Below the pieces are notes generated by a model. That model was not told the DNA's origin. It did no database searches and saw only the letters and a list, made by a program, of their open reading frames with translations. Shown in pieces: positions 37,818-49,363 of a DNA stretch of 51,378 nt; positions within the stretch are counted from its first letter, which is position 1, and every line of letters starts with the position of its first letter. The DNA lies in the NCBI GenBank assembly GCA_009996515.1, contig JAACZV010000006.1:150142-201519 (forward strand). Direction: 5' to 3'. The stretch is from Comamonadaceae bacterium (GTDB lineage: Bacteria > Pseudomonadota > Gammaproteobacteria > Burkholderiales > Burkholderiaceae_C). Made by a program: the position numbers and the translations under genes.

Positions 37818-39356
37818 ATGGGCGACATGAACGCCGTGCGCAGCGTCATCATCGTGGGCGGCGGCACCGCCGGCTGGATGAGCGCGGCCGCCTTCGCCAA
37901 GGCGCTGGGCGGCCGCGTGCAGATCCGGCTGGTGGAGTCCGACGAGATCGGCATCATCGGTGTGGGCGAGGCCTCCATCCCCAACCTGACCGAGTTCAAC
38001 CGCGCGCTGGGCGTGGACGAGGACGAGTTCCTGCGCGCCACGCAGGGCTCGTTCAAGCTGGGCATCGAGTTCGTCAACTGGGGCGCGGTCGGCGAGCGCT
38101 ACATCCACGGCTTCGGCCGCCTCGGCCAGCCCGAGGACACCGTGCCCTTCCACCAGTTCTGGCTGCGTCTGGCGCAACAGGGCCAGGCCCGGCCGCTGGG
38201 CGAGTATTCGATCAACACGGCGGCGCCGCGCGAGGCGCGCTTCATGCGCGCGCGGCCCGACATGCGCGGCTCGCCGCTGGCCGAGATCGCCCACGCCTAC
38301 CACTTCGACGCCAGCCTCTACGCGCGCTTCCTGCGCCACTACGCCGAGCAGCGCGGCGTGCACCGCACCGAGGGCAAGGTGGCGGGCGTGGAGCAGCACG
38401 AGAACGGCCACATCGCCGCGCTGCGCATGGAGAGCGGCGAACGCATCGCGGGCGACTTCTTCATCGACTGCACGGGCATGCGTGCCCTGCTCATCGGGCA
38501 GACGCTCAAGGCCGGCTACGAGGACTGGTCGCATTGGCTGCCCTGCGACCGCGCCATCGCCGTGCCCTGCGAGCGCGTGGACCCGCTGCTGCCGATGACG
38601 CGCTCCACCGCGCACGCGGCCGGCTGGCAGTGGCGCATCCCGCTGCAGCACCGCACCGGCAACGGCCATGTCTACAGCAGCCGCTTCATGGAGGCCCAGG
38701 ACGCCGAGGCCATCCTGTTGGCCGGGCTGGACGGCCGGCCCACCGCCGCGCCGCGCCACCTGAGCTTCCGCACCGGCCGCGCCGGGCGCTTCTGGATCGG
38801 CAACTGCGTCGCCGTGGGCTTGTCCAGCGGCTTCCTGGAGCCGCTGGAGTCCACCAGCATCCACCTCATCCACATGGCCATCGCGCGCATCCTGGAGTTT
38901 TTCCCGAACGCCGGCTTCGATGCCACCGACATCGACGAGTACAACGCGCTGACCCGCGAGGAGTTCGAGAACGTGCGCGACTTCCTGGTGCTGCACTACA
39001 AGCTCACGCGGCGCGACGACTCGCCGTTCTGGAACCACTGCCGCCAGATGGAAGTGCCGGAGCGGCTGGCGCGCAAGCTGGCGCTGTTCGCCGCCAACGG
39101 GCGCGTCTACCGCCGCAGCGACGAGCTGTTCGCCGAGTCCAGCTGGCTGCAGGTCATGGTGGGCCAGGGCCTGATGCCGCGCGGCCACCATCCCTTTGCC
39201 GACCAGCCGGACGAGGCCGAGGTGCTCGCCTATCTGGAGAACGTGCGCCAGGTGGTGGGCAAATGCGTGCAGGTCATGCCCACGCATGCGGAGTTCATCG
39301 CCCGGCATTGCGCCGCGCGCCCCGCGGCGCCGGCCGCCGCGGCCCAGCCGGCCTGA
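37818..39356 (+). CDS. tryptophan halogenase-like flavoprotein
   Basis: A 512-residue FAD-dependent protein. The Rossmann motif is IIVGGGTAGWMSAAA near the N-terminus. GVGEASIPNL and GSFKLGIEFVNW (the catalytic-lysine region of PrnA-type halogenases) follow, and the GWxWxIP halogenase signature is present as GWQWRIPLQ. GLSSGFLEPLESTSIHLI is also conserved. Members of this family are often encoded beside TonB-dependent sugar receptors, where no halogenation product is known. The start may instead be the ATG at 37827. It is probably co-transcribed with the receptor. Confidence 0.93.
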   Translation: MGDMNAVRSVIIVGGGTAGWMSAAAFAKALGGRVQIRLVESDEIGIIGVGEASIPNLTEFNRALGVDEDEFLRATQGSFKLGIEFVNWGAVGERYIHGFGRLGQPEDTVPFHQFWLRLAQQGQARPLGEYSINTAAPREARFMRARPDMRGSPLAEIAHAYHFDASLYARFLRHYAEQRGVHRTEGKVAGVEQHENGHIAALRMESGERIAGDFFIDCTGMRALLIGQTLKAGYEDWSHWLPCDRAIAVPCERVDPLLPMTRSTAHAAGWQWRIPLQHRTGNGHVYSSRFMEAQDAEAILLAGLDGRPTAAPRHLSFRTGRAGRFWIGNCVAVGLSSGFLEPLESTSIHLIHMAIARILEFFPNAGFDATDIDEYNALTREEFENVRDFLVLHYKLTRRDDSPFWNHCRQMEVPERLARKLALFAANGRVYRRSDELFAESSWLQVMVGQGLMPRGHHPFADQPDEAEVLAYLENVRQVVGKCVQVMPTHAEFIARHCAARPAAPAAAAQPA

Positions 39357-39421
39357 TCCGGCAAGCTCTGGTTCGGCGGCGCTCCCCGGTTGCTGCGCCG
39401 CCCTGGTTCGCCGCCTGGCGA

Positions 39422-39446
39422 GGCCGCGCAAGCGGCCGCTTTTTTT
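39422..39446 (+). terminator. intrinsic terminator of the receptor-halogenase operon
   Basis: GGCCGC-GCAA-GCGGCC followed by GCTTTTTTT. It isolates the downstream EF-G leader from the beta-glucan locus. Confidence 0.9.
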
Positions 39447-39511
39447 GGGGATGCGCTTGAAAGCCCCACGCAGGCCCCGACATTCATCGCCGACCGACAA
39501 TTCTTCGCATC

Positions 39512-39553
39512 ATGAAGCTCAACCCCACGACCCAAGCCCGCCACAGCACCTGA
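39512..39553 (+). CDS. 13-residue leader peptide upstream of the EF-G paralogue
   Basis: ATG AAG CTC, then codons giving MKLNPTTQARHST and a TGA stop. G or C is in nearly every third position, as in real genes here. It begins about 20 bp after a plausible promoter (TTGAAA at 39457, 17-bp spacer, ACATTC) and ends 51 bp before an intrinsic terminator. No Shine-Dalgarno is visible. Position and size fit a leader ORF for attenuation; whether it is translated is inference. Confidence 0.45.
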   Translation: MKLNPTTQARHST

Positions 39554-39571
39554 GGCGTCTTCGACCGTGTT

Positions 39572-39592
39572 CGGAAGGCGCGCAGCCTTCCG
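39572..39592 (+). promoter_or_regulatory. leader hairpin before the attenuator
   Basis: CGGAAGGC-GCGCA-GCCTTCCG, a perfect 8-bp stem between the leader ORF and the terminator. It could be a pause or anti-antiterminator structure. Confidence 0.5.
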
Positions 39593-39603
39593 GTTCAGCC
39601 CAC

Positions 39604-39642
39604 AACCCCGGCAGGCTCGCAGCCCCCGGGGTTTTGTTTTTT
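39604..39642 (+). terminator. intrinsic terminator (candidate attenuator) inside the EF-G leader
   Basis: AACCCCGG (39604-39611) pairs with CCGGGGTT (39626-39633), followed by TTGTTTTTTC. The T tract is strong and the site lies 176 bp upstream of the EF-G-like start, after the 13-codon ORF. A terminator here must be read through for the downstream gene to be expressed from the leader promoter. Confidence 0.75.
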
Positions 39643-39659
39643 CTGAGCCGACGGCCACC

Positions 39660-39767
39660 ATGTTCAAGCGCACCTTCGACAAGCTGATCGCCACGATTCC
39701 CGAGCGCCGGAGCGCGGCCAGCCCCTGCCTGTCGCATGCGCGCTTCGGCGTCCTGCCCACGCGCTAG
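39660..39767 (+). CDS. 35-residue small protein in the EF-G leader
   Basis: A small ORF encoding [18 protein letters not shown] followed by 17 more residues, with almost all codons ending in G or C. It starts 17 bp after the attenuator T tract and stops 50 bp before the EF-G-like ATG. The first half looks like a basic amphipathic helix. I do not recognise it; it could be a second leader peptide or a small protein co-made with the GTPase. A weak GAGCCGACGG precedes its ATG. Confidence 0.45.
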
Positions 39768-39789
39768 CCCTCGGCGATTCCGCCGAGGG
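39768..39789 (+). promoter_or_regulatory. hairpin upstream of the EF-G paralogue
   Basis: CCCTCGGCG-ATTC-CGCCGAGGG, a perfect 9-bp stem starting right after the stop of the 35-codon ORF and ending 28 bp before the EF-G-like ATG. No T tract follows, so a role in translation control is more likely than termination. Confidence 0.55.
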
Positions 39790-39817
39790 CCGGCCCCTCA
39801 GCCCTTCAGGAATCGCC

Positions 39818-41830
39818 ATGAACTCGAACAACTCCCGCCCACTGCGCAACATCGGCGTCATCGCCCACGTCGACGCCGGCAAGACCACCACCAGCGAACG
39901 CATCCTGTTCTACACCGGCGAGAACCATCGCATCGGCGACGTCAACGACGGCAACACGACGATGGACTTCGACCCCCAGGAGCGCCAGCGCGGCATCACC
40001 ATCCACAGCGCGGCCACCACCGTGCACTGGCGGGGCACGCAGATCAACCTGATCGACACGCCCGGACACATCGACTTCAACCTCGAGGTGCGCCGCTCGC
40101 TGCGCGTGCTGGACGGCGCCATCGTCGTCTTCGACGGCGTGGCCGGCGTGGAGCCGCAGACCGAGACCAACTGGCGCCTCGCGGACGAGTACCGCGTGCC
40201 GCGCATCGCCTTCGTCAACAAGCTGGACCGCGTCGGCGCGGATTTCCAGCGCGTCGTCGCGTCCCTGCAGGAGCGGCTGGGCGCGCGCGCGCTGCCGCTG
40301 CAGCTGCCTCTGGGCGCCGAAGGCGAGTTCCGCGGCGTGGTGGACCTGATCGCCATGCAGGCCCTGGTCTGGGAGCGCGACGACGCCAGCGCGCCGCCGC
40401 GCATCGAGGCCATCCCGGCCGCGCTGCTGAGCGCCGCCGAGGCCGCACGGGCGCGCATCGTCGAGGCCGCCGCCGAGCAGGACGACGCGCTGCTGGCCGC
40501 CTGGCTGAGCGGTGCCGAGCCGGCGCCGGACGCGCTGCGCGCGGCCTTGCGCCGCGGCACCATCGCCGGCGCCTTCGTGCCCGTGCTGGCCGGCGCCGCC
40601 TTCCGCAACCGCGGCGTGGAGCCGCTGCTGGACGCCGCCGTCGCCTACCTGCCCGCGCCCGGCGAAGCGCCCGGCGCCGCGCCCACCGACGGCCCGCTGT
40701 CGGCGCTGGCCTTCAAGCTCAGCGCCGATGACCACGGCGCGATGGTGTTCGTGCGCGTCTACAGCGGCCGGCTCCAGCGCGGCGACACGGTCTTCAACGC
40801 CAGCACCGGCAAGGCCGAGCGCGTGTCGCGCCTGTATGAGATCCACGCCGACCGCCGCGTCGAGCGCGACGCACTCGTCGCGGGCGACATCGCCGGCATC
40901 GTGGGCCTGAAGGAGGTGCTGACCGGCCACACGCTGGCGGACCGAAAGGACGCGCCGCTGCTGGAAAGCATCGCCGTGCCCGAGGCCGTCATCGACGTCG
41001 CCATCGAGCCGCGCAGGCAGGCCGATGCCGCCGCCCTCGCGAAGGGCCTGGGCGTGCTGGTGCGCGAAGACCCCTCGCTGCGGCTGCGCCAGGACGCCGA
41101 CTCCGGCCAGACGCTGCTGTCCGGCATGGGCGAGCTGCAGCTCGAAGTGGCGGTGGAGACGCTGCGCACGCGCTTCGGCGTGGAGGTGCAGGTGGGCCGG
41201 CCCCAGGTCGCCTACCGCGAGACCATCGCTCAATCGGCCGAGGTGCACCATCTGCACCGCAAGCAGAGCGGCGGCCCGGGCCAGTTCGCCGCGCTGACGC
41301 TGCGCGTGGCGCCGCGGCCGCGCGGGGCCGGCCTGCGCTTCGAGAGCCAGGTGGTGGGCGGCGCCATCCCGCGCGAGTTCATCCCGGCGGTCGAGGCCGG
41401 CATCCGCCGCGCCGCGCAGGCCGGCCCGTTCGCGGGCTATCCGCTGGTGGACTTCGAGGCGGTGCTGCTGGACGGCAGCGCCCACGTGAAGGACTCGTCG
41501 GCGCTGGCCTTCGAGCTGGCCGCCGCGGCGGCGCTGCGCGAGGCCGTCCTCAAGGCGGCGCCGCGGGTGCTGGAACCGGTGATGGCCGTCGAGGTCATCA
41601 CGCCGGCCGAGAGCCTGGGCGACGTCATCGGCGACCTGCTGCGCCGGCGCGGCCAGGTGCAGGGCCAGGACGCGCGCGGCAACGCGGTGGTCGTCACGGC
41701 CCATGTGCCGCTGGCGCAGATGTTCGGCTACATCGGCCAGCTGCGCGCGCTCAGCTCGGGGCGGGCCCAGTTCACGATGCAGCTGGGCCATTACGCTGAG
41801 GCGCCGGCGCGCGCCGCGCTGGCGGCCTGA
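39818..41830 (+). CDS. elongation factor G paralogue (EF-G-like translational GTPase)
   Basis: A 670-residue translational GTPase, about 30 residues shorter than housekeeping EF-G. G1 is [10 protein letters not shown] (16-25), switch I ends [10 protein letters not shown]3 is DTPGH (80-84) and G4 is NKLD (134-137). Domain II, III and IV segments are present, including [12 protein letters not shown] and [13 protein letters not shown]. It is not next to rpsL, rpsG or tuf, so it is not the main fusA. CAGGAA lies 6 bp before the ATG. The leader, with an ORF and terminator, suggests conditional expression, as for ribosome-protection or accessory EF-G proteins. Confidence 0.9.
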
Positions 41831-41834
41831 CCGG

Positions 41835-41861
41835 GGGTGGGGTGCCATGGCAGCCCCACCC
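41835..41861 (+). terminator. hairpin after the EF-G paralogue
   Basis: GGGTGGGG-TGCCATGGCAG-CCCCACCC has an 8-bp stem plus an inner TGCCATGGCA palindrome, starting 4 bp after the stop codon. There is no T tract. A second hairpin, GAGGGCC-CTCAGA-GGCCCTC, lies at 41932-41951. Confidence 0.5.
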
Positions 41862-41998
41862 GCTCGCGCACGCCACAGCCCTCGCGAAGAAAACCGCCTG
41901 GTTGAGACTTTTGACGCGCTATGACGCCGCAGAGGGCCCTCAGAGGCCCTCGTGGGCGGCCGGCTGCCCCCGGCGCCCTGCTTATGCAAGACAATTTG

Positions 41999-42013
41999 TT
42001 TGTCCTGGACAAA
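41999..42013. promoter_or_regulatory. TTTGTCC-T-GGACAAA palindrome upstream of the chemoreceptor
   Basis: A perfect 7-bp-arm palindrome in an AT-richer pocket 233 bp before the chemoreceptor ATG. The shape fits a dimeric repressor site (GntR or MarR class, for example). The rest of the 416-bp gap (41831-42246) shows no convincing gene, only hairpins and repeated GTCGAC/GACGCGTC words near 42165-42197. Confidence 0.5.
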
Positions 42014-42246
42014 TCATGAACGTCAAGACCCAGGAATGACCCGCCCATGACGACGCGCGGTCGCCTCTCGCCCTTGGGGCCCATGGTCGGCGCTGACCCT
42101 GGGCCAGGGGCCGGACGACCGGCGGGCTGCCCCGGCTTGGCCTCACACCACAGACGCGAGCCTGTCGCGTCGACTGCTGCCGCCCGACGCGTCGACGGAC
42201 CGCGGCAGGGCTTTGGTTTCGACAGGCTAGGTACGAAAGGATTCCC

Positions 42247-43689
42247 ATGTTGAATGCCGCCCTTCCCCACCGGGGCACCGCCCAGTACGCAAGACTGGGC
42301 GACAGGGTGCTGCTCGTCGCGATCGGGATCGGCGCGGTCGCCGCCTGGCTGCTGGGGCTGGCCTACGCGCAGACGGGGCTGGCGGTGGCCGCCTCCCTGG
42401 CACTGCTCGCGCTCGCCGGCATCGGATATGCGCTCACCCGGGGCGGCGCCAGCCGCTACGTGCTGACGTTGGTGCTGGTCGGACTGGTGGCGCTGCACAT
42501 CCAGCTGGCCCGGGGCACGAGCGAGTTCCACTTCGGGGTTTTCGTCGTGCTGGCCTTCCTGCTGGTCTATCTGGACTGGACCGTGATCGCCTTCGGCGCG
42601 CTGCTGTTTGCGCTGCATCACGTCGTCTTCGATCGCCTGCAGGCGGCCGGCCTGGGGGCCATCTGCACCACCGAGCCCGACTTCCCGCGGGTGTTGCTGC
42701 ACGCGGTCTACGTGGTCATCCAGGCCGGCATCGAGATCGCGCTGGCGCGCATCATGAGCCACGCGGCGCTGCAGGGCGAGGAGCTGCGGCTGCTGGTGGA
42801 GTGCGTCAACCGCGAACACGGCATCGCGCTGGACGTTGCCGCCATCGCCACCCGGACGCCGGGCGGCCAGGCGCTGAAGTCGACGCTGACACGCATGGAC
42901 CAGGCCGTGGCCACGGTGCGCAGCGGAGCCGCGAGCATCGAGGTCGCCAGCACCGAGATCGCCAGCGGCAACCAGGACCTCAGCCGCCGCACCGAACAGA
43001 CCGCCGCCAACCTGCAGCTCGCCAGCGGCAGGATGGCGACGCTCACGGACACCGTCCGCCTGACCGCCGAACGCGCCGGCCAGGCCAGCGGGCTGGCCCT
43101 GGAGGCCAGCCAGGTCGCGGCCCGGGGGGGCGCGACGATGGGGCAGGTCGTCGAGACCATGCAGGGCATCCACGAGAGCTCGCGCAGGGTCACCGACATC
43201 ATCGGCGTCATCGACGGCATCGCCTTCCAGACCAACATCCTGGCGCTGAACGCCGCGGTCGAGGCGGCGCGGGCTGGAGAACAAGGCCGCGGGTTCGCCG
43301 TGGTGGCCACCGAGGTGCGCTCGCTCGCCGGGCTCAGTGCCCAGGCCGCCAGGGAGATCAAGGCCCTGGTGGGCGCCAGCGTCGACCGTGTCGAACGTGG
43401 CAGTGCGCTGGTCACCGAGGCCGGCGCAACGATGAACCAGGTGGTCGCCGGCATCCGCCAGGTGGCCGGACTCATCAGCGAGATCCATGTGGCCAGCACC
43501 GAGCAGGCCAGCGGCGCTGCGGCGGTCAACGAGGCCGTGCAGGCGATGGACCAGGCCACCCAGCAGAATGCGGCGCTGGTCGAACAGATGGCGGCCGCCG
43601 CCGCAAGCCTGATGACGCAGGCCCGGGAGCTCGTGGGCACGGTGGCGATCTTCCAGTCCTCCTCGCAGGCGCCGGGGCGCAGCCACTGA
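42247..43689 (+). CDS. membrane-bound methyl-accepting chemotaxis protein
   Basis: A 480-residue chemoreceptor. About five or six hydrophobic helices occupy residues 20-170 with no large periplasmic domain and no HAMP, so sensing probably happens in or at the membrane. The coiled-coil signalling domain runs from about 215 to 465, and the hairpin tip VIDGIAFQTNILALNAAVEA plus ARAGEQGRGFAVVATEVRSL (321-360) is the canonical CheA/CheW contact. No C-terminal CheR-binding pentapeptide is seen. It is 86 bp upstream of the photoactive yellow protein gene, in the same direction, so a link to light sensing is possible. Confidence 0.93.
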   Translation: MLNAALPHRGTAQYARLGDRVLLVAIGIGAVAAWLLGLAYAQTGLAVAASLALLALAGIGYALTRGGASRYVLTLVLVGLVALHIQLARGTSEFHFGVFVVLAFLLVYLDWTVIAFGALLFALHHVVFDRLQAAGLGAICTTEPDFPRVLLHAVYVVIQAGIEIALARIMSHAALQGEELRLLVECVNREHGIALDVAAIATRTPGGQALKSTLTRMDQAVATVRSGAASIEVASTEIASGNQDLSRRTEQTAANLQLASGRMATLTDTVRLTAERAGQASGLALEASQVAARGGATMGQVVETMQGIHESSRRVTDIIGVIDGIAFQTNILALNAAVEAARAGEQGRGFAVVATEVRSLAGLSAQAAREIKALVGASVDRVERGSALVTEAGATMNQVVAGIRQVAGLISEIHVASTEQASGAAAVNEAVQAMDQATQQNAALVEQMAAAAASLMTQARELVGTVAIFQSSSQAPGRSH

Positions 43690-43775
43690 ACGCCCCGCGC
43701 CCCGGCCCTCCCCCTCGGGCACACCGGCCCGGCGCGCAACATCTGCCCCCGACCGAACGCGAACCCAGGATCGTC

Positions 43776-44165
43776 ATGAACGCTGAACACCCGCCCCGCT
43801 TCGACACCCCGTCTCTGCTCGACCTCCTGGCGCGGGCCTCGGAGGCCGAGCTGGATGCGCTGGACTTCGGCATCATCGGTTTCGACGCCGGCGGTGTGGT
43901 CACGCAGTACAACGCCCACGAGTCCAGGGCCGCGGGCCTGTCGCCGGCCCGGGTGCTGGGTCACCCGCTGTTCACCGTGGTGGCCCCCTGCATGAACAAT
44001 TTCATGGTGGCGCAGCGCTTCGAAGATGCCCAGGCCCAGGGCGAGCCGCTGGACGCCACCATCGACTACGTGCTGACGCTGCGCATGCGCCCCGTCAAGG
44101 TCAAGCTGAGGCTGTTGTACGCCCCCGCGATCGCCACACGCTACGTGGTGGTGCAGCGCTCATGA
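43776..44165 (+). CDS. pyp: photoactive yellow protein
   Basis: A 129-residue PAS-fold blue-light receptor of the PYP family. Residues that hold p-coumaric acid in Halorhodospira PYP are kept: Cys72 (VAPC, equal to Cys69), Tyr45 (QYNA, equal to Tyr42) and Glu49 (equal to Glu46). Thr50 and Arg52 are replaced by Ala and Leu, which may shift the absorption maximum or photocycle speed. ALDFGIIGFD, followed by PVKVKLRLL and YVVVQR, matches the fold throughout. It overlaps the diguanylate cyclase start by four bases. No tyrosine ammonia lyase or coumarate ligase gene is in the window. Confidence 0.92.
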   Translation: MNAEHPPRFDTPSLLDLLARASEAELDALDFGIIGFDAGGVVTQYNAHESRAAGLSPARVLGHPLFTVVAPCMNNFMVAQRFEDAQAQGEPLDATIDYVLTLRMRPVKVKLRLLYAPAIATRYVVVQRS

Positions 44166-45463
44166 GCGCCGGCCTGGAGGAGGAGCACGAGGCGCTGCTG
44201 CAGTTCCTCTACATGGCCCCGGTCGGCCTGGTGCAGACGCGGCATGACGGCGAGGTGCTGATGATCAACCCGCTCTGCGCGCAGTTGCTGATGCCGTTGT
44301 CGCGCGACGGGGGCCTGTCCAATCTTTTCAGCGCGCTGGGCGATGTGGCGCCCGACCTGAGGCACCGCGTGGCGCAGTTCGACGCGCCGCACGGCATGGT
44401 CTGCGATTCGCTGCAGATACAGCTGAGCCGCGGGCAGTCCGGCGACCGGGAGCCGCGCATCCTGTCGCTCAGCCTGCTCAAGCTCGATGCCGAGCGGCTG
44501 ATGGGGCTGCTGAGCGATGTCACGCAGTCCGTCAAGCGCGACCGCGCGCTGCGCCAGAGCCAGGCCTGGATCCACAGCATCGTCACCGGCATCTCCGACT
44601 ACGCCCTGCTGTCTCTGGACGAGCAAGGCCGGATACGGGACTGGAACCCGGCGGTGGAGCGCATGACCGGCTACAGCGGCGCGGCCCTGGTGGGCCAGCC
44701 GTTCTCCAGGTTCTATCCCGCCGACGCGGTACCCGCCGGCCGGCTGCAGGACCGGCTCCACGAGGCGGACGCCAACGGCTGGAGCCTGGATGAGGGCTGG
44801 CGCCTGCGCGCCGATGGCTCGCGCTACTGGGGCAGCTGCCTGATCGCGCCGCTGCACGGCCCGGGCGAGGAGCAGCCGGATGAGCGCGCCTACAGCCTGA
44901 TCCTGAGGGACATCTCCGACCGGCGCGCCGCCAACGAGGAGATACGCCGCTCGCTGACCTGCGATCACCTGACGGGGCTGCTCAATCGCCGCGCGTTCTT
45001 CGACGCGGCAGAGCCGGAGCTGCAGCGCTGGCGGCGCCGCCCGCGTCCGCTGGCGCTGGTGATGGTGGACGCCGACCACTTCAAGCAGGTCAACGACCGC
45101 CACGGCCATGCGGCCGGCGACGCCGTGCTGCGCCATCTCGCCGCGGGCATGCGCGCCACCTTCCGCGCGATGGATCTGATCGCCCGCATGGGCGGCGAGG
45201 AGTTCGCGGTGCTGCTGCCCGACACGACGGCCGAAGGCGCGCAATCGGTGGCCCAGCGGCTGTGCGAGCGCATCGCCCGCCAGCAGGTCGACGTCGACGG
45301 GCAGACGATCAGCTACACCGTCAGTGCCGGCGTCAGCGCAATGGATGCGGATGTGGCCGATCTCGAAAGCCTGCTGAAGCGGGCCGACGAAGCGCTCTAC
45401 CGCGCCAAGGCCGGCGGCCGCAATCGCGTGGAACTGTGGTGCGCCGGGCCTGCGGCCCGCTGA
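44162..45463 (+). CDS. PAS-PAS-GGDEF diguanylate cyclase
   Basis: A 433-residue soluble protein with PAS-like regions at about 8-125 and 133-258 and a C-terminal GGDEF domain (265-425). The active site is GGEEF (344-348) with the metal Asp in VMVDADHFK. An inhibitory I-site RAMD (335-338) sits exactly five residues upstream, so product inhibition is expected. It is translationally coupled to pyp (ATGA), which argues that the photoreceptor controls cyclase activity through direct contact, perhaps with the PAS domains. The first PAS is PYP-unlike and has no Cys at the chromophore position. Confidence 0.93.
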   Translation: MSAGLEEEHEALLQFLYMAPVGLVQTRHDGEVLMINPLCAQLLMPLSRDGGLSNLFSALGDVAPDLRHRVAQFDAPHGMVCDSLQIQLSRGQSGDREPRILSLSLLKLDAERLMGLLSDVTQSVKRDRALRQSQAWIHSIVTGISDYALLSLDEQGRIRDWNPAVERMTGYSGAALVGQPFSRFYPADAVPAGRLQDRLHEADANGWSLDEGWRLRADGSRYWGSCLIAPLHGPGEEQPDERAYSLILRDISDRRAANEEIRRSLTCDHLTGLLNRRAFFDAAEPELQRWRRRPRPLALVMVDADHFKQVNDRHGHAAGDAVLRHLAAGMRATFRAMDLIARMGGEEFAVLLPDTTAEGAQSVAQRLCERIARQQVDVDGQTISYTVSAGVSAMDADVADLESLLKRADEALYRAKAGGRNRVELWCAGPAAR

Positions 45464-45515
45464 TCCCGGGTGCCAGCAGGCGGCGCCTGGCGCGCGCCGC
45501 CGGCTGAGCACGTCG

Positions 45516-46829
45516 TCAGGGCGCCGGCCGCCCGGGCAGGCCTTCATCGACGCCGCCCGACAGGCTGCGCAGGAAGGCGACGATCTGGCGCGACTCCTCG
45601 TCGTCGAGGCGGATGGCCAGGCGCCCGGCACTGGGCTTGCCGCCCGGCGCCAGTTCGCTCGTGCCCGCCGCGGCCGGCGGCGAGCGGCGGTAATGCGCCA
45701 GCACCTCGTCCAGCGTCTTCAGCTGGCCGCCATGCATATAGGGCGGGCGCAGCGCCACGTTGCGCAGCCCCGGTGTCCTGAAGGCGCCCTCCATGCCGGG
45801 ATCGTCGGCAGCCACGAAGCGCAGCTCGCCGCAGGCGGCCGCGTCGGCATCGCTGTAGCGGCCCAGGCAGTTGAACTCGTCCGCCTGCACGCGGGCGATG
45901 GCGGCCGCCCGGCCCCGGTCGGGCTGGCCCGGCAGCCGCGGCGGCACGCCGGTGTTGTGGAAATGCTGGTCGCTGAACAGCGGGCCGTTGTGGCAGGTCG
46001 CGCACTGGGCCTTGCCGATGAACAGCCGCAGGCCGCGCACCTCGTCCGGCGTCAGCAGCTGGCGGCCGGCGGCATCGCCGCTCTCGACGGCACGCACATA
46101 GCCGTCGAAGCGGGACGGCCCGGAGGCCAGCGTCCGCTCATAGGCCGCCACCGCCTTGCCCAGGTTGGCGAACACCCGGTTCACCGCGTCGCGCTGCGCC
46201 TCGCTCATGCGCTCCCAGGCCTGGCGCTGCTCCGGCGTGCCGACCGGGCTGGCGTCGTCGGGCAGGCCCGCCAGCGGCGGGAACGCGCCGAACACCTGCT
46301 CGTACGGGGCCCGGTGATGGGCGTGCAGCTGCCGGGCGATGCGGGTGCGGTTGCTGCCGTGCTCGGCGCCGTCCTCCAGCGGCCCCAGCGCCTGCGACCA
46401 GAGGCTGTCCTTGCGCCCGTCCCAGAACAGCCAGGGGCTGCGGGCCGCGTCGGCGATGGGCATGGTGCGGCGCGCGCCGTCGGCGATGCCGCGCCCCACC
46501 GGTCGGCCGTCCTGGAACTGGCGCCCGGGGTCGTGGCAGCTGGCGCAGGACACCCGGCCGTCGCGCGACAGCCTCGCATCGAAGAACAGCGCCCGGCCCA
46601 GCCGGGCGGCCTCGGGGCGGTCCGCCACGGCATTGCCGGGGTCGGGCGGCAGCGCGCCCAGCCGGTCCAGCCGCATCCCCGCCAGCACGGCGAGCTCCGC
46701 GGCGGACCAGCCGTCGTCGCGGCCGCGGCTCCAGCCAAAGCCCGCCAGCACCGGCAGCAGCGCGGCCAGGACGATCCAGGCCCAGCGGCGGCCCGGCATG
46801 CGCCGCGGCGTCGGGCGGCGCGCCGTCAC
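45516..46829 (-). CDS. di-haem cytochrome c peroxidase family protein
   Basis: A 437-residue exported protein of the CCP/MauG family. A signal anchor (WAWIVLAALLPVLAGFGW) follows a basic N-terminus. Two haem c sites are present, CASCH (95-99) and CATCH, with RTPGLRNVALRPPYMHGG as the C-terminal signature. The start is taken as GTG at 46829, because it overlaps the YtkA-like gene stop as GTGA; the ATG at 46799 is an alternative. It reduces peroxides or carries out a related oxidation in the periplasm. It is the last gene of a three-gene operon. Confidence 0.9.
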   Translation of the reverse strand: MTARRPTPRRMPGRRWAWIVLAALLPVLAGFGWSRGRDDGWSAAELAVLAGMRLDRLGALPPDPGNAVADRPEAARLGRALFFDARLSRDGRVSCASCHDPGRQFQDGRPVGRGIADGARRTMPIADAARSPWLFWDGRKDSLWSQALGPLEDGAEHGSNRTRIARQLHAHHRAPYEQVFGAFPPLAGLPDDASPVGTPEQRQAWERMSEAQRDAVNRVFANLGKAVAAYERTLASGPSRFDGYVRAVESGDAAGRQLLTPDEVRGLRLFIGKAQCATCHNGPLFSDQHFHNTGVPPRLPGQPDRGRAAAIARVQADEFNCLGRYSDADAAACGELRFVAADDPGMEGAFRTPGLRNVALRPPYMHGGQLKTLDEVLAHYRRSPPAAAGTSELAPGGKPSAGRLAIRLDDEESRQIVAFLRSLSGGVDEGLPGRPAP

Positions 46830-47281
46830 GGCCGCTTCAGGCCGTCGCCGGCCATCACCACGTTGAACACCGCCTTGTCGCGCGCGCCGTCCGCATCGAT
46901 GTCCAGGCGCAGGTCCCACCAGCCGGTCATGCTGAACTTCATGCCTTCGATGAGGTAGGTGCCGGAGGCCAGCTCACGGGTCACGCGCGGCTTGGTCGGC
47001 AGCCCGTGGCCATGCTGCGGCATGCCGCCGTCGACGGCGATGCGCGCATGCGTCACCGGCGCGCCATCGGTGTTGGCCAGCTTCAGCGTCCAGCTGTGGA
47101 TCTGGCCGACGGCCGGCCCCTGCGCGGGCGGGACCATCTCGACGACAAAGCGGCCGGTGCTGCTGTGGTGCTTCAGCGAGTAGTCGAGGTCGGTGGGCGG
47201 CGTGCCGCAGCCGGACAGCGACAAGACGGCCGCGAGGGTGGCGGTGGCCAGGGTGGAGGTCAACAGGTAGGGCTTGAACAT
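46826..47281 (-). CDS. YtkA-like lipoprotein
   Basis: A 151-residue lipoprotein with signal LATATLAAVLSLSGC (Cys about 25). The mature domain resembles YtkA/FixH-like immunoglobulin-type modules: WTLKLANTDGAPVTHARIAV, then GGMPQHGHGLPTKP with a His/Met-rich loop, and FSMTGWWDLRLDI. The MPQHGHG loop could bind copper. It overlaps the peroxidase gene by four bases, so the two probably act together in the periplasm. Confidence 0.8.
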   Translation of the reverse strand: MFKPYLLTSTLATATLAAVLSLSGCGTPPTDLDYSLKHHSSTGRFVVEMVPPAQGPAVGQIHSWTLKLANTDGAPVTHARIAVDGGMPQHGHGLPTKPRVTRELASGTYLIEGMKFSMTGWWDLRLDIDADGARDKAVFNVVMAGDGLKRP

Positions 47282-47334
47282 GGTGTGGGTGCTCCAGATG
47301 GAGGGTGGGTGGGGAAGGGGGTCGCCTGCGCGGC

Positions 47335-47694
47335 CTAGGCGCGGGCCGCGTCGATGAGGCGCTGCAGGTCGGCGGGAATGGGCAGGGGCTTCCAGCCCGG
47401 CACGTCGGCGCCACCCGTGTTGCCGGGCGGCACGGCGCCCCAGGGCGTCAGCAGCGCGGCGGCGGCGATGCGCCAGAGCTGGCTCAAGGCCTCGCCCGCA
47501 TGGCGCCGGCGCAGTGCCCAGGCCAGCATGGCCACATGCACACGCACATGCTCGCGGGTGCTGGCCTGGCCCAGCACATGGGCCCGCTCCAGATGCCGGA
47601 AGGCCGTGGTGGGCGCGCCGAGCGCCTCGTGGAAGCGCGCGGCGCCGAGTTCGTTCGAGACGGGAAGGCGTATGCGCCTGGCAAAGGAAGTCAT
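47335..47694 (-). CDS. DUF3703-like cytoplasmic protein
   Basis: A 119-residue protein with no signal peptide. FHEALGAPTTAFRHLERAHVLGQ and HVRVHVAMLAWALRRR match the histidine-rich helical region of DUF3703 proteins, quoted here in parts under 20 residues each: TTAFRHLERAHVLGQ and EHVRVHVAMLAWALRRR. WRIAAAALLTPWGAVPPGNTG is also typical. CAGGAG precedes the ATG at 47694. First gene of the peroxidase operon. These genes often travel with metal-response functions; the role is unknown. Confidence 0.75.
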   Translation of the reverse strand: MTSFARRIRLPVSNELGAARFHEALGAPTTAFRHLERAHVLGQASTREHVRVHVAMLAWALRRRHAGEALSQLWRIAAAALLTPWGAVPPGNTGGADVPGWKPLPIPADLQRLIDAARA

Positions 47695-47782
47695 CTGGCA
47701 CTCCTGGGTTGAAGGTTGGGGTGGCGGGTGGGCTGTTGCCGGGAGCGGACTGTGGGCATGCGCCGTGCGGCCCGACAGCGCG

Positions 47783-47960
47783 GCGCGACCTGTGGTCGCA
47801 AAGCGTCCGGCAGCGGTCGTTTGCGGCGACCGAACGGGAGCCCGCGCCGAGGCCGCATCCGGCCGCCGCGCGGGGCGGCGGAGCTGGGCAGGCGGCCGGC
47901 GCCGTTCGGTCGACCGGACCGCCCCTTCCCGCCTGGGGCGCGACCACTCGTCGCAAAGCG
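47783..47960. promoter_or_regulatory. three palindromes between the peroxidase operon and the metallothionein-like gene
   Basis: GCGAC-N5-GTCGC followed by AAAGCG occurs twice: at 47783-47805 (GCGCGACCTGTGGTCGCAAAG...) and 47938-47960, where 19 of 23 bases are identical and only the central four differ. A third palindrome, CGGTCG-TTTGCGG-CGACCG, is at 47814-47832. They fill the 344-bp divergent gap and look like operators for one regulator acting on both transcripts. Confidence 0.55.
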
Positions 47961-48038
47961 CTGCCGGCAGCGCCAGGCCGGGCGGCACAGTCAACCCATC
48001 GACGACATCCCGTCGGCGATCAACCCAGGAGATCGACC

Positions 48039-48191
48039 ATGAACGACACCCAGACCTCTCAAGCCTGCCGCTGCAACGACTGCCCCGGCACGGGCTGCAA
48101 CTGCGGCTGCCAGGCCAAGCCGGCGCAGCCGTCCTGCGCCTGCGGGCCGCAATGCCGCTGCGGCCCGGCCTGCGCCTGCACCAAGTCCTGA
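48039..48191 (+). CDS. cysteine-rich metallothionein-like protein
   Basis: A 50-residue protein with 12 cysteines and no histidine. The N-terminal half has CRCNDC and CNCGC, the C-terminal half CACGPQCRCGPACAC. The CxC and CxxxC spacing is that of a metal-thiolate cluster protein, in two groups of six separated by QAKPAQPS. It has no aromatic residues. CAGGAG lies 7 bp before the ATG. It does not look like SmtA-type bacterial metallothioneins, which carry histidine and zinc-finger-like parts. It is divergent from the peroxidase/YtkA/DUF3703 operon. Confidence 0.8.
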   Translation: MNDTQTSQACRCNDCPGTGCNCGCQAKPAQPSCACGPQCRCGPACACTKS

Positions 48192-48310
48192 GCCGGCCGC
48201 CCCGGCCCGGCCACGCCCGAGTCGACGCCTACCGCGTCGACTCGATTGGCGGATGCCGCACCTGGCCGTAGAGTGACCGGCCGCCCCCTCACGAGCCCCC
48301 CGCGCCTCCC

Positions 48311-49363
48311 ATGACGCCCTCCGCCCCAACGGTCCCGCCCCGTGGCCTGCTGCAGATCCTGCTGATCGCCGCCGCCCTGTGGGCCCTCGCCGCCGTCCTG
48401 CTGTTCCTCGTCGTGCCGGGCATCGAGACCCTGCCCAGGGTGCTGATGTTCTCCGAGTGCGTGGGGCTGACCATGGTCGTCGTGGCGATGTTCCTGCACC
48501 GCAACCAGCATTTCTCCCGCTTCAAGCCGGCCTGGCGCTGGCTGTTCAGAGGCCTGATCGCCATCCCGGCGGGCTACTTCATCGGCCACCAGATCGCCTT
48601 CCTGCTGCTGGGCGAGCCCATGCAGATGGTCGGCCACCGCGCCATCAGCTTCATCCCCATCCTCTTCACCATCCTGGTGGGCGGCTTCGGCCTGCATTAC
48701 TACGCCACCCGCGAGCAGCTGGCGTCGGAAGCGGCGCAGCGCGCCGAGGCGCAGCGGCTGGCCGTCGAGTCCCAGCTGCGCCTGCTGCGCACCCAGCTCG
48801 AGCCGCACATGCTGTTCAACACGCTGGCCAACGTGCGCTCGCTGGTGCGGGAAGACGCCGGCCGCGCCGAGGCCATGATCGACCAGCTCATCGTCTACCT
48901 GCGCAGTGCATTGATCGCCTCGCAGACCGATGCCGTGGCGCTGAGCCGCGAGTTCGCGCAGGTGCGCGCCTACCTGGACATCATGGCGCTGCGCATGGGC
49001 GCGCGGCTGAGCTACCGGCTCAGCCTGCCCCAGGAGCTGGAGGACTTGCTGGTGCCGCCCATGCTGCTGCAGCCGCTGGTCGAGAACGCCATCAAGCATG
49101 GCCTGGAGCCCAAGGTCGGCGGCGGCAGCATCGAGGTGGAGGCGCTGCGCCAGGATGCCTTCATCGAGCTGCGCGTGCGCGACAGCGGCCTGGGCCTGCC
49201 CGCGGACGGCGACCTCGCCCCGCCAGGCCCGGCGACCAGCACCAGCTACGGCCTGCAGCATGTGCGCGACCGGCTGCACGTGACCTATGGCCAGGCGGCG
49301 GAGCTGCGCCTGGAACGGCGCCTGCCGGCCGGCGTCAACGCCGTGATCCGCATCCCGTGCTGA
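48311..49363 (+). CDS. LytS/YehU-type sensor histidine kinase
   Basis: A 350-residue membrane kinase. Four hydrophobic helices occupy about residues 12-135, followed by a short coiled coil (QLASEAAQRAEAQRLAVE). The phosphoacceptor region is QLEPHMLFNTLANVRSL, the His_kinase-family variant of LxPHFLFN. The ATPase part has LQPLVENAIKHGLEP and VRDSGLGLP, followed by YGLQHVRDRL. It is followed after 28 bp by the LytTR regulator. The stimulus is unknown. Confidence 0.93.
   Translation: MTPSAPTVPPRGLLQILLIAAALWALAAVLLFLVVPGIETLPRVLMFSECVGLTMVVVAMFLHRNQHFSRFKPAWRWLFRGLIAIPAGYFIGHQIAFLLLGEPMQMVGHRAISFIPILFTILVGGFGLHYYATREQLASEAAQRAEAQRLAVESQLRLLRTQLEPHMLFNTLANVRSLVREDAGRAEAMIDQLIVYLRSALIASQTDAVALSREFAQVRAYLDIMALRMGARLSYRLSLPQELEDLLVPPMLLQPLVENAIKHGLEPKVGGGSIEVEALRQDAFIELRVRDSGLGLPADGDLAPPGPATSTSYGLQHVRDRLHVTYGQAAELRLERRLPAGVNAVIRIPC

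Follow-up and report, generated by a model that had tools for sequence, protein, structure and literature searches.

A PAS domain that accompanies clade C photoactive yellow proteins is a candidate receiver in a putative two-protein light switch for c-di-GMP

Introduction

Photoactive yellow protein (PYP) is among the best-studied photoreceptors, yet the way in which its single-domain forms relay a signal is unsettled. A PYP-binding protein of Rhodobacter capsulatus, going by the title of a 2021 study by Kim, is reportedly a partner of a single-domain PYP. Signal relay from single-domain PYPs is stated to be an open question in PMC9664959 and PMC12826048, and a 2026 abstract (PMC13250908) says the same of the Halorhodospira PYP.

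The same question is raised by a locus from a Comamonadaceae bacterium (assembly GCA_009996515.1, 4.58 Mb in 48 contigs), in which the gene for a free PYP overlaps the gene for a diguanylate cyclase. We analysed a stretch of 51,378 nucleotides that holds this pair, called the window here and forming part of contig JAACZV010000006.1 (C6), and asked on what its PYP would act. According to Xing, Gumerov and Zhulin (2022, PMC9664959) clade C PYPs are found mostly in Burkholderiales, none of them is characterised, and they often adjoin GGDEF genes; the pair in the window is a further member of this published class. Among the predicted pyp operons of Dohmen (2025, PMC12826048), 29 include GGDEF and 22 EAL. 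Two systems cited in both papers share PYP input and c-di-GMP output with the pair, but the Idiomarina loihiensis PYP, linked to biofilm, belongs to clade A, and Ppd of Thermochromatium tepidum is a single-chain PYP-phytochrome-GGDEF/EAL fusion.

The PYP and its clade

The first-pass annotation of the window had described a 129-residue PYP with Cys, Tyr and Glu at the chromophore positions, and this was borne out. The open reading frame at 43776..44165 (+ strand) encodes 129 amino acids and matches TIGR02373 (photo_yellow; E 1.2e-23, 83.5 bits, below the cut-off of 143.05); its best match among solved structures is Ppr, by its PYP domain (1mzu, E 1.9e-18). PMC9664959 reports that, of the PYP homologues detected with BLAST, TIGR02373 covers 20%. 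In Halorhodospira numbering Tyr42 corresponds to Y45 (codon 43908..43910), Glu46 to E49 (43920..43922) and Cys69, the chromophore attachment site, to C72 (43989..43991), all on the + strand; Thr50 is replaced by Ala and Arg52 by Leu, and positions 92, 96 and 100 hold Ile, Leu and Met. Cys69, Glu46 and Met100 were present in 114 of 114 distinct clade C PYPs, and Tyr42 in 113. Position 92 held Ile (87 of the 114), Leu, Val or Met and never Phe, and position 96 held Leu in 111 and Phe in 3. Pro68, which adjoins the chromophore cysteine, was Gln in 14 of the 114.

When 399 genomes of the family were scanned with TIGR02373, 36 of them yielded a total of 48 places above 49 bits, with the next place at 29 bits. 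Any match at all was obtained in 70 of the 399, and the 34 additional genomes at 29 bits or less were taken to show general PAS similarity and left uncounted. Besides the window, the other 47 of the 48 places were examined in 44 regions. A tree of 63 rows was made from 47 of the 48 family places (the second copy in genome G035 was left out) and 16 rows from 13 plasmid records. It split into 50 and 13 rows with a bootstrap of 98, which had not settled, and an SH-aLRT of 99. Five family sequences above the TIGR02373 cut-off fell on the 13-row side, and the window PYP on the 50-row side. The sequences of Xing 2022 are absent from this tree, and the assignment to their clade C is based on residues, taxa and neighbours: as in the clade C described in PMC9664959, our set kept Tyr42, Glu46 and Cys69, lost Phe92 and Phe96 and conserved Met100, came mostly from Burkholderiales and had a neighbouring GGDEF gene. 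These features and the split of the tree place the window PYP, as judged from its sequence, in clade C and apart from the clade A branch.

Clade C PYP was not found in any of 19 congeners of the window species, which counts against a light switch of PYP and cyclase. Because of this absence the pair would have been either gained by the window species or lost by its congeners. The G+C content of positions 38000-49000, in 1 kb steps, stayed between 0.69 and 0.76 and showed no island, and there is no G+C sign of a recent arrival of the pair.

The cyclase and its first PAS domain

The cyclase gene (44162..45463, + strand, 433 amino acids) starts inside the stop of pyp, as had been claimed: the two genes overlap by the four bases ATGA at 44162..44165, with the cyclase ATG at 44162 and the pyp stop TGA at 44163-44165. 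In 35 of 79 relatives a start codon is available whose overlap with the stop of pyp is 1 or 4 bases. The arrangement suggests that the two genes are translationally coupled. A promoter and terminator scan of 43500-44300 found nothing and was uninformative.

A Pfam scan of the cyclase gave a GGDEF domain (157.7 bits; residues 267-422, 44960..45427) and one PAS domain, PAS2 (residues ~138-256, 44573..44929). The GGEEF active-site motif (45191..45205) and, five residues ahead of it, the I-site RAMD (45164..45175) are both present, so that with GG[DE]EF and RxxD intact the protein should make c-di-GMP. The PAS-PAS-GGDEF order of the first-pass annotation is thereby reproduced, with its first PAS domain coming from an AlphaFold model. 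This domain, PAS1 (residues 1-130, 44162..44551), was not matched by any Pfam or NCBIfam model at E 0.001. AlphaFold2 with an alignment of 70 rows, made of 39 of 62 and 30 of 62 rows plus that of the window, modelled it with a pLDDT of 88.3 and a pTM of 0.78, in a PAS-like strand order with one N-terminal and one C-terminal helix. Foldseek matched the model to PAS domains, best to a WalK model (E 3.8e-06), with PYP structures also among the matches, and a PDB search with the PAS1 sequence returned only weak PAS-kinase matches (best E 0.013). The PAS fold of PAS1 is accordingly a predicted one, taken solely from the modelled structure. A cysteine, C81 in the window, was conserved in 90% or more of the 70 rows. 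Homology of PAS1 to PYP itself was considered and rejected, as profile comparison gave a probability of 0.4 (of 100) and E 0.15 over 46 columns.

Co-occurrence of PAS1 with clade C PYP

The first-pass annotation had suggested testing whether linkage of pyp to the GGDEF gene is conserved in relatives. It was found widely, and comparison of the neighbourhoods specified it further: the constant neighbour of clade C PYP is the N-terminal PAS1 of the partner and not the GGDEF domain. In the 399 family genomes strong matches to PAS1 (profile A2, E below 1e-14) were obtained in 34, a set identical to that with clade C PYP, and in none of the other 365. Five genomes lacking clade C PYP (G215, G279, G284, G335, G354) gave weak matches of E 1e-4 to 1e-3; these were put down to general PAS similarity and left out of the count. 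The genomes with only non-C PYPs, G035 and G246, had no PAS1. Six genomes (G056, G078, G103, G183, G250, G316) carry both kinds of PYP, so the contrast in PAS1 exists within one genome. Among 369 genomes drawn from the order, with limits of E 1e-20 for clade C PYP and E 1e-10 for PAS1, clade C PYP occurred in 9 and PAS1 in the same 9, and PAS1 in none of the other 360; the two draws overlap, the genome of the window and at least ten other family genomes being in both. In each genome these searches scored only the 10 to 12 candidates that ranked best in an initial pass.

By a hand count 63 of 68 PAS1 matches, namely 51 strong ones in the family and 17 in the order besides that of the window, lie within 3 kb of a PYP. 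Two of the other five are near a contig edge (G261:C482). The remaining three (G261:C146:8589-8942, G573:C41:6368-6727 and G573:C110:22412-22768, the last with an internal stop) are in genomes that hold clade C PYP elsewhere, and possibly these copies are targets in trans.

We also scanned 84,980 species genomes, in which 272 stretches were confirmed and the best 80 were kept as named loci, with close relatives over-represented. PAS1 was directly downstream of pyp in 79 of these best 80 of 272, with no more than 125 bases between the stop of pyp and the start of the PAS1 match, and the remaining locus (L191) ends near a contig edge. Counted by distinct clade C PYPs, 110 of 114 had PAS1 within 5 kb downstream on the same strand, with a median distance of 39.5 bases between the two matches. 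The four exceptions differ: at L057 the contig ends too early, the PAS1 of L050 falls slightly short of the score limit (59.6 bits), and L068 and L217 are without PAS1, which counts against a PYP-PAS1 switch. In the 63-row tree, where 49 clade C PYPs could be assessed, 47 of them were followed immediately by a PAS1 gene, as were none of the 13 others; the label 'no PAS1' there means absence from the next gene, and L057 was left unlabelled for its contig end. At five loci (L040, L043, L219, L220, L227) a non-C pyp shares the locus with a clade C pyp, and PAS1 was credited to the latter only. Clade C PYPs on plasmids, from Rhizobium, Sphingomonas, Methylobacterium, Polymorphobacter, Indioceanicola and Caballeronia, had PAS1 in 11 of 12 cases; in two instances a pair of records shares one PYP.

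The clade C PYP of L217 (5989-11051, a plasmid of Comamonadaceae OTU4NAUVB1) is altered at the Asn43 and Pro68 positions, and faces a gene for a CheB-CheR-PAS-kinase hybrid and a BLUF photoreceptor gene.

Exchange of outputs

The proteins to which PAS1 is joined differ between loci. Among the best 80 of 272 loci, 56 have the order pyp, PAS1-PAS2-GGDEF and a second PAS1 protein with EAL, which is PAS1-GGDEF-EAL in 53 and PAS1-EAL in 3. An automatic motif search of the same best 80 of 272 found EALVR in 63 of 69 EAL proteins, many of which also retain GGDEF, and in the GGDEF-only proteins GGEEF in 63 of 65 and RxxD in 58 of 65. The EAL proteins of the pyp loci are putative phosphodiesterases. 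The window locus has the cyclase member only and is without an EAL partner.

Elsewhere PAS1 was found on HisKA-HATPase kinases (L133, L160, L131, L046), on hybrid kinases (L081, L082) and at the C-terminus of a HisKA_3 kinase (L059), and alone in about 150 residues (L055, L058, and L065, which is cut off by a contig end). In the minimal case, L055, pyp is accompanied by PAS1 and an AMP-binding ligase with no enzymatic output, between aconitase and molybdopterin oxidoreductase genes. In a tree of 177 PAS1 rows, weakly resolved from a short alignment, the output class changed at least 11 times among four classes; the well-supported branches alone force 3 changes for kinases and 5 for each enzyme class.

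Two further arrangements were observed. At L179 (6997-9993) a single frame of 998 residues reads PAS1-PAS2-PAS1-GGDEF-EAL. At L058 (6384-9780) a PAS-kinase gene overlaps the start of the clade C pyp, a stand-alone PAS1 and a ligase follow, and the locus holds a PucC-family gene.

Signal relay from PYP to PAS1

Since PAS1 tracks clade C PYP across exchanged outputs, we propose that it is the receiver domain of this PYP, and regard a two-protein light switch for c-di-GMP, made up of clade C PYP and a cyclase with a PAS1 receiver, as the rather probable function of the pair. The soluble PYP would carry a p-coumaroyl thioester on Cys72 and, the genes overlapping, would be made in step with the cyclase. 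Blue light would bring PYP into its signalling state and alter its binding to the N-terminal PAS1 of the cyclase, from where the change would be relayed via PAS2 to the GGDEF domains and set the synthesis of c-di-GMP. In relatives this dedicated receiver would also serve GGDEF-EAL proteins encoded in the pyp operon and histidine kinases, or act unattached as an adaptor of about 150 residues, and one light sensor would thus reach different outputs through exchangeable PAS1 proteins.

A broader form of this reading, to which we give a little less than an even chance, sees clade C PYP as a soluble light-switched ligand for one plug-in PAS domain that evolution would have fitted to opposed activities, cyclase and phosphodiesterase, as well as to kinases and free adaptors, sometimes outside the operon, such that a single PYP could serve several outputs in trans.

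That a free PYP acts on a separate cyclase, as the first-pass annotation had suggested, is well supported by linkage. Its further proposal, contact between the two, drew no support from the structural prediction or from covariation. AlphaFold2 was applied to a read-through PYP-PAS1 chain from L122 with the stop read as Gly (17 joined and 116 single-domain rows, the latter being 57 of 63 PYP-only and 57 of 62 PAS1-only rows plus the two of the window). Both domains were folded (mean pLDDT 84.4), with a pTM of 0.50 and no confident docking. By mutual information, inter-domain pairs made up 71 of the top 200 against 103 expected from the numbers of pairs, a comparison of weak power with about 80 effective sequences. 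A PYP-PAS1 contact is what the linkage suggests.

These two null results speak for joint inheritance of the genes without contact. PAS1 would then sense a ligand of its own, and with its conserved C81 and PAS fold it could bind a cofactor; PYP would sense light and act elsewhere, with the cassette travelling jointly and the cyclase integrating other signals. Operon linkage by itself would also yield much of the co-occurrence. However, the linkage follows the domain and not one protein, as PAS1 is found with cyclases, phosphodiesterases and kinases, at the N- or C-terminus or alone. Furthermore, among the 10 to 12 candidates scored per genome, none outside the genomes with clade C PYP was a strong PAS1 match, and even the three copies distant from pyp are in PYP-bearing genomes. 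We therefore regard joint inheritance without contact as unlikely, and PAS1, which in the genomes examined occurs only where clade C PYP does, as a good candidate for the missing signalling partner.

The text of PMC9664959 names GGDEF and EAL neighbours and does not single out a shared N-terminal domain; similarly, the pyp operons of PMC12826048 contain GGDEF and EAL as here, with no shared partner domain named in what that paper says of them. In the openly accessible main texts searched, no dedicated partner domain for clade C PYP was named. As far as we have seen, PAS1 as the partner domain of clade C PYP has no earlier description, and it would be the first for a whole PYP clade. With a domain seen solely with one PYP clade and carried by exchangeable outputs, the relay question could be reduced to the binding of two small proteins, and the pair could be of use as a small tool of two parts that puts c-di-GMP or kinases under the control of light.

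Chromophore supply

A light switch of PYP and PAS1 would depend on p-coumaric acid being available, and here the evidence from the window genome and from its relatives differs. In the window genome no PYP-type coumarate-CoA ligase was found, the best match to TIGR02372 scoring 105.7 bits against a cut-off of 334.7. This match is an AMP-binding/ApeI protein in an aryl-polyene- or flexirubin-like cluster that also holds an aromatic ammonia lyase, one of two PF00221 ammonia lyases in the genome. For the cluster lyase the best NCBIfam match was to a TAL model (401 bits, cut-off 1000), with a histidine ammonia-lyase model scoring only slightly lower. The cluster (contig C5, 158000-171000; L210) includes the aromatic ammonia lyase, the AMP-binding/ApeI fusion, a LolA-like protein, an MMPL transporter and a FlxJ-like methyltransferase, and is a possible source of p-coumarate for PYP.

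In relatives, ligase genes were found directly beside clade C pyp. In 29 of the best 80 of 272 loci the clade C pyp has a ligase-like gene, defined by homology to the ligase beside the non-C pyp of G103, at a distance of no more than about 0.2 kb, and in 26 of the 29 the two genes are divergent; in all, 34 loci have such a gene, four together with a second PYP and one (L128) at 3.2 kb. Ligase genes also adjoin clade C pyp on alphaproteobacterial plasmids. Against TIGR02372 the ligases of L159, one of these 29 loci, and of L223 (a Rhizobium plasmid) scored 308 and 254 bits, below the cut-off, with the next model at 74 and 49 bits. Because of these adjoining ligase genes, clade C PYPs in general probably bind p-coumarate. 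On a plasmid of Indioceanicola profundi (L220, 2477-7622), a non-C pyp, a ligase, an ammonia lyase, a clade C pyp and a PAS1-GGDEF gene are lined up in one direction in an apparent operon.

That no such ligase was found in the window genome bears on a further explanation, in which the window PYP has ceased to sense light and is either apo or loaded only when p-coumaroyl-CoA is around, and would report plant phenolics or the redox state to the cyclase. Likewise, when four candidates were scored in each of the 34 family genomes with clade C PYP at an E limit of 1e-30, TIGR02372 matches of 177 bits or more were found in only 8, in five cases next to a non-C PYP, and redox neofunctionalisation has been proposed for some PYPs (PMC9664959). 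Against this, the invariance of Cys69, Glu46 and Met100 and the single exception at Tyr42 among the 114 PYPs are to be set, together with the ligase genes that adjoin clade C pyp in other genomes; PYP ligases can moreover be broad-range, and p-coumaric acid may come from outside (PMC12826048). We consider such a loss of light sensing quite unlikely.

The chemoreceptor and other neighbouring genes

The first-pass annotation had placed a chemoreceptor 86 bp upstream in the same direction and thought that it might share the pathway. The position is correct, as the gene (42247..43689, + strand, identified by domain matches) ends 86 bases before pyp. A share in the pathway was not supported. PYP would in that case signal to the chemoreceptor and direct phototaxis, for which the common strand, the short gap and the absence of a terminator-like site between the genes could be cited, as well as the clade B PYPs that adjoin chemoreceptors and the known MCP-PYP fusions (PMC9664959, PMC12826048). 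Chemoreceptors also lie within 6 kb of clade C pyp at one family locus besides the window (L053) and at 3 of 13 plasmid loci (L218, L221, L222), but their place or strand varies. The chemoreceptor signalling domain was absent from all 80 related neighbourhoods of up to 14 kb (best 80 of 272), and homologues of the window chemoreceptor (E 1e-100 or better) were present in 5 of the 19 congeners, in which clade C PYP was not found. As a conserved partner of PYP the chemoreceptor was rejected; it is probably outside the system, the 86-base gap is most likely due to chance, and we regard phototaxis through it as very improbable.

The absence of photosynthesis genes, noted earlier for the window, holds genome-wide for one marker, the reaction-centre gene PF00124, which was not found. 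Beside the chemoreceptor an EF-G-like gene was located at 39818-41830 (TIGR00484, 829.8 bits, above the cut-off). Downstream, a MauG-type peroxidase gene (45516-46919) faces the pyp-cyclase pair, and at 48039-48191 there is a cysteine-rich frame of 50 residues that, judging from its translation, we take to resemble a small metallothionein.
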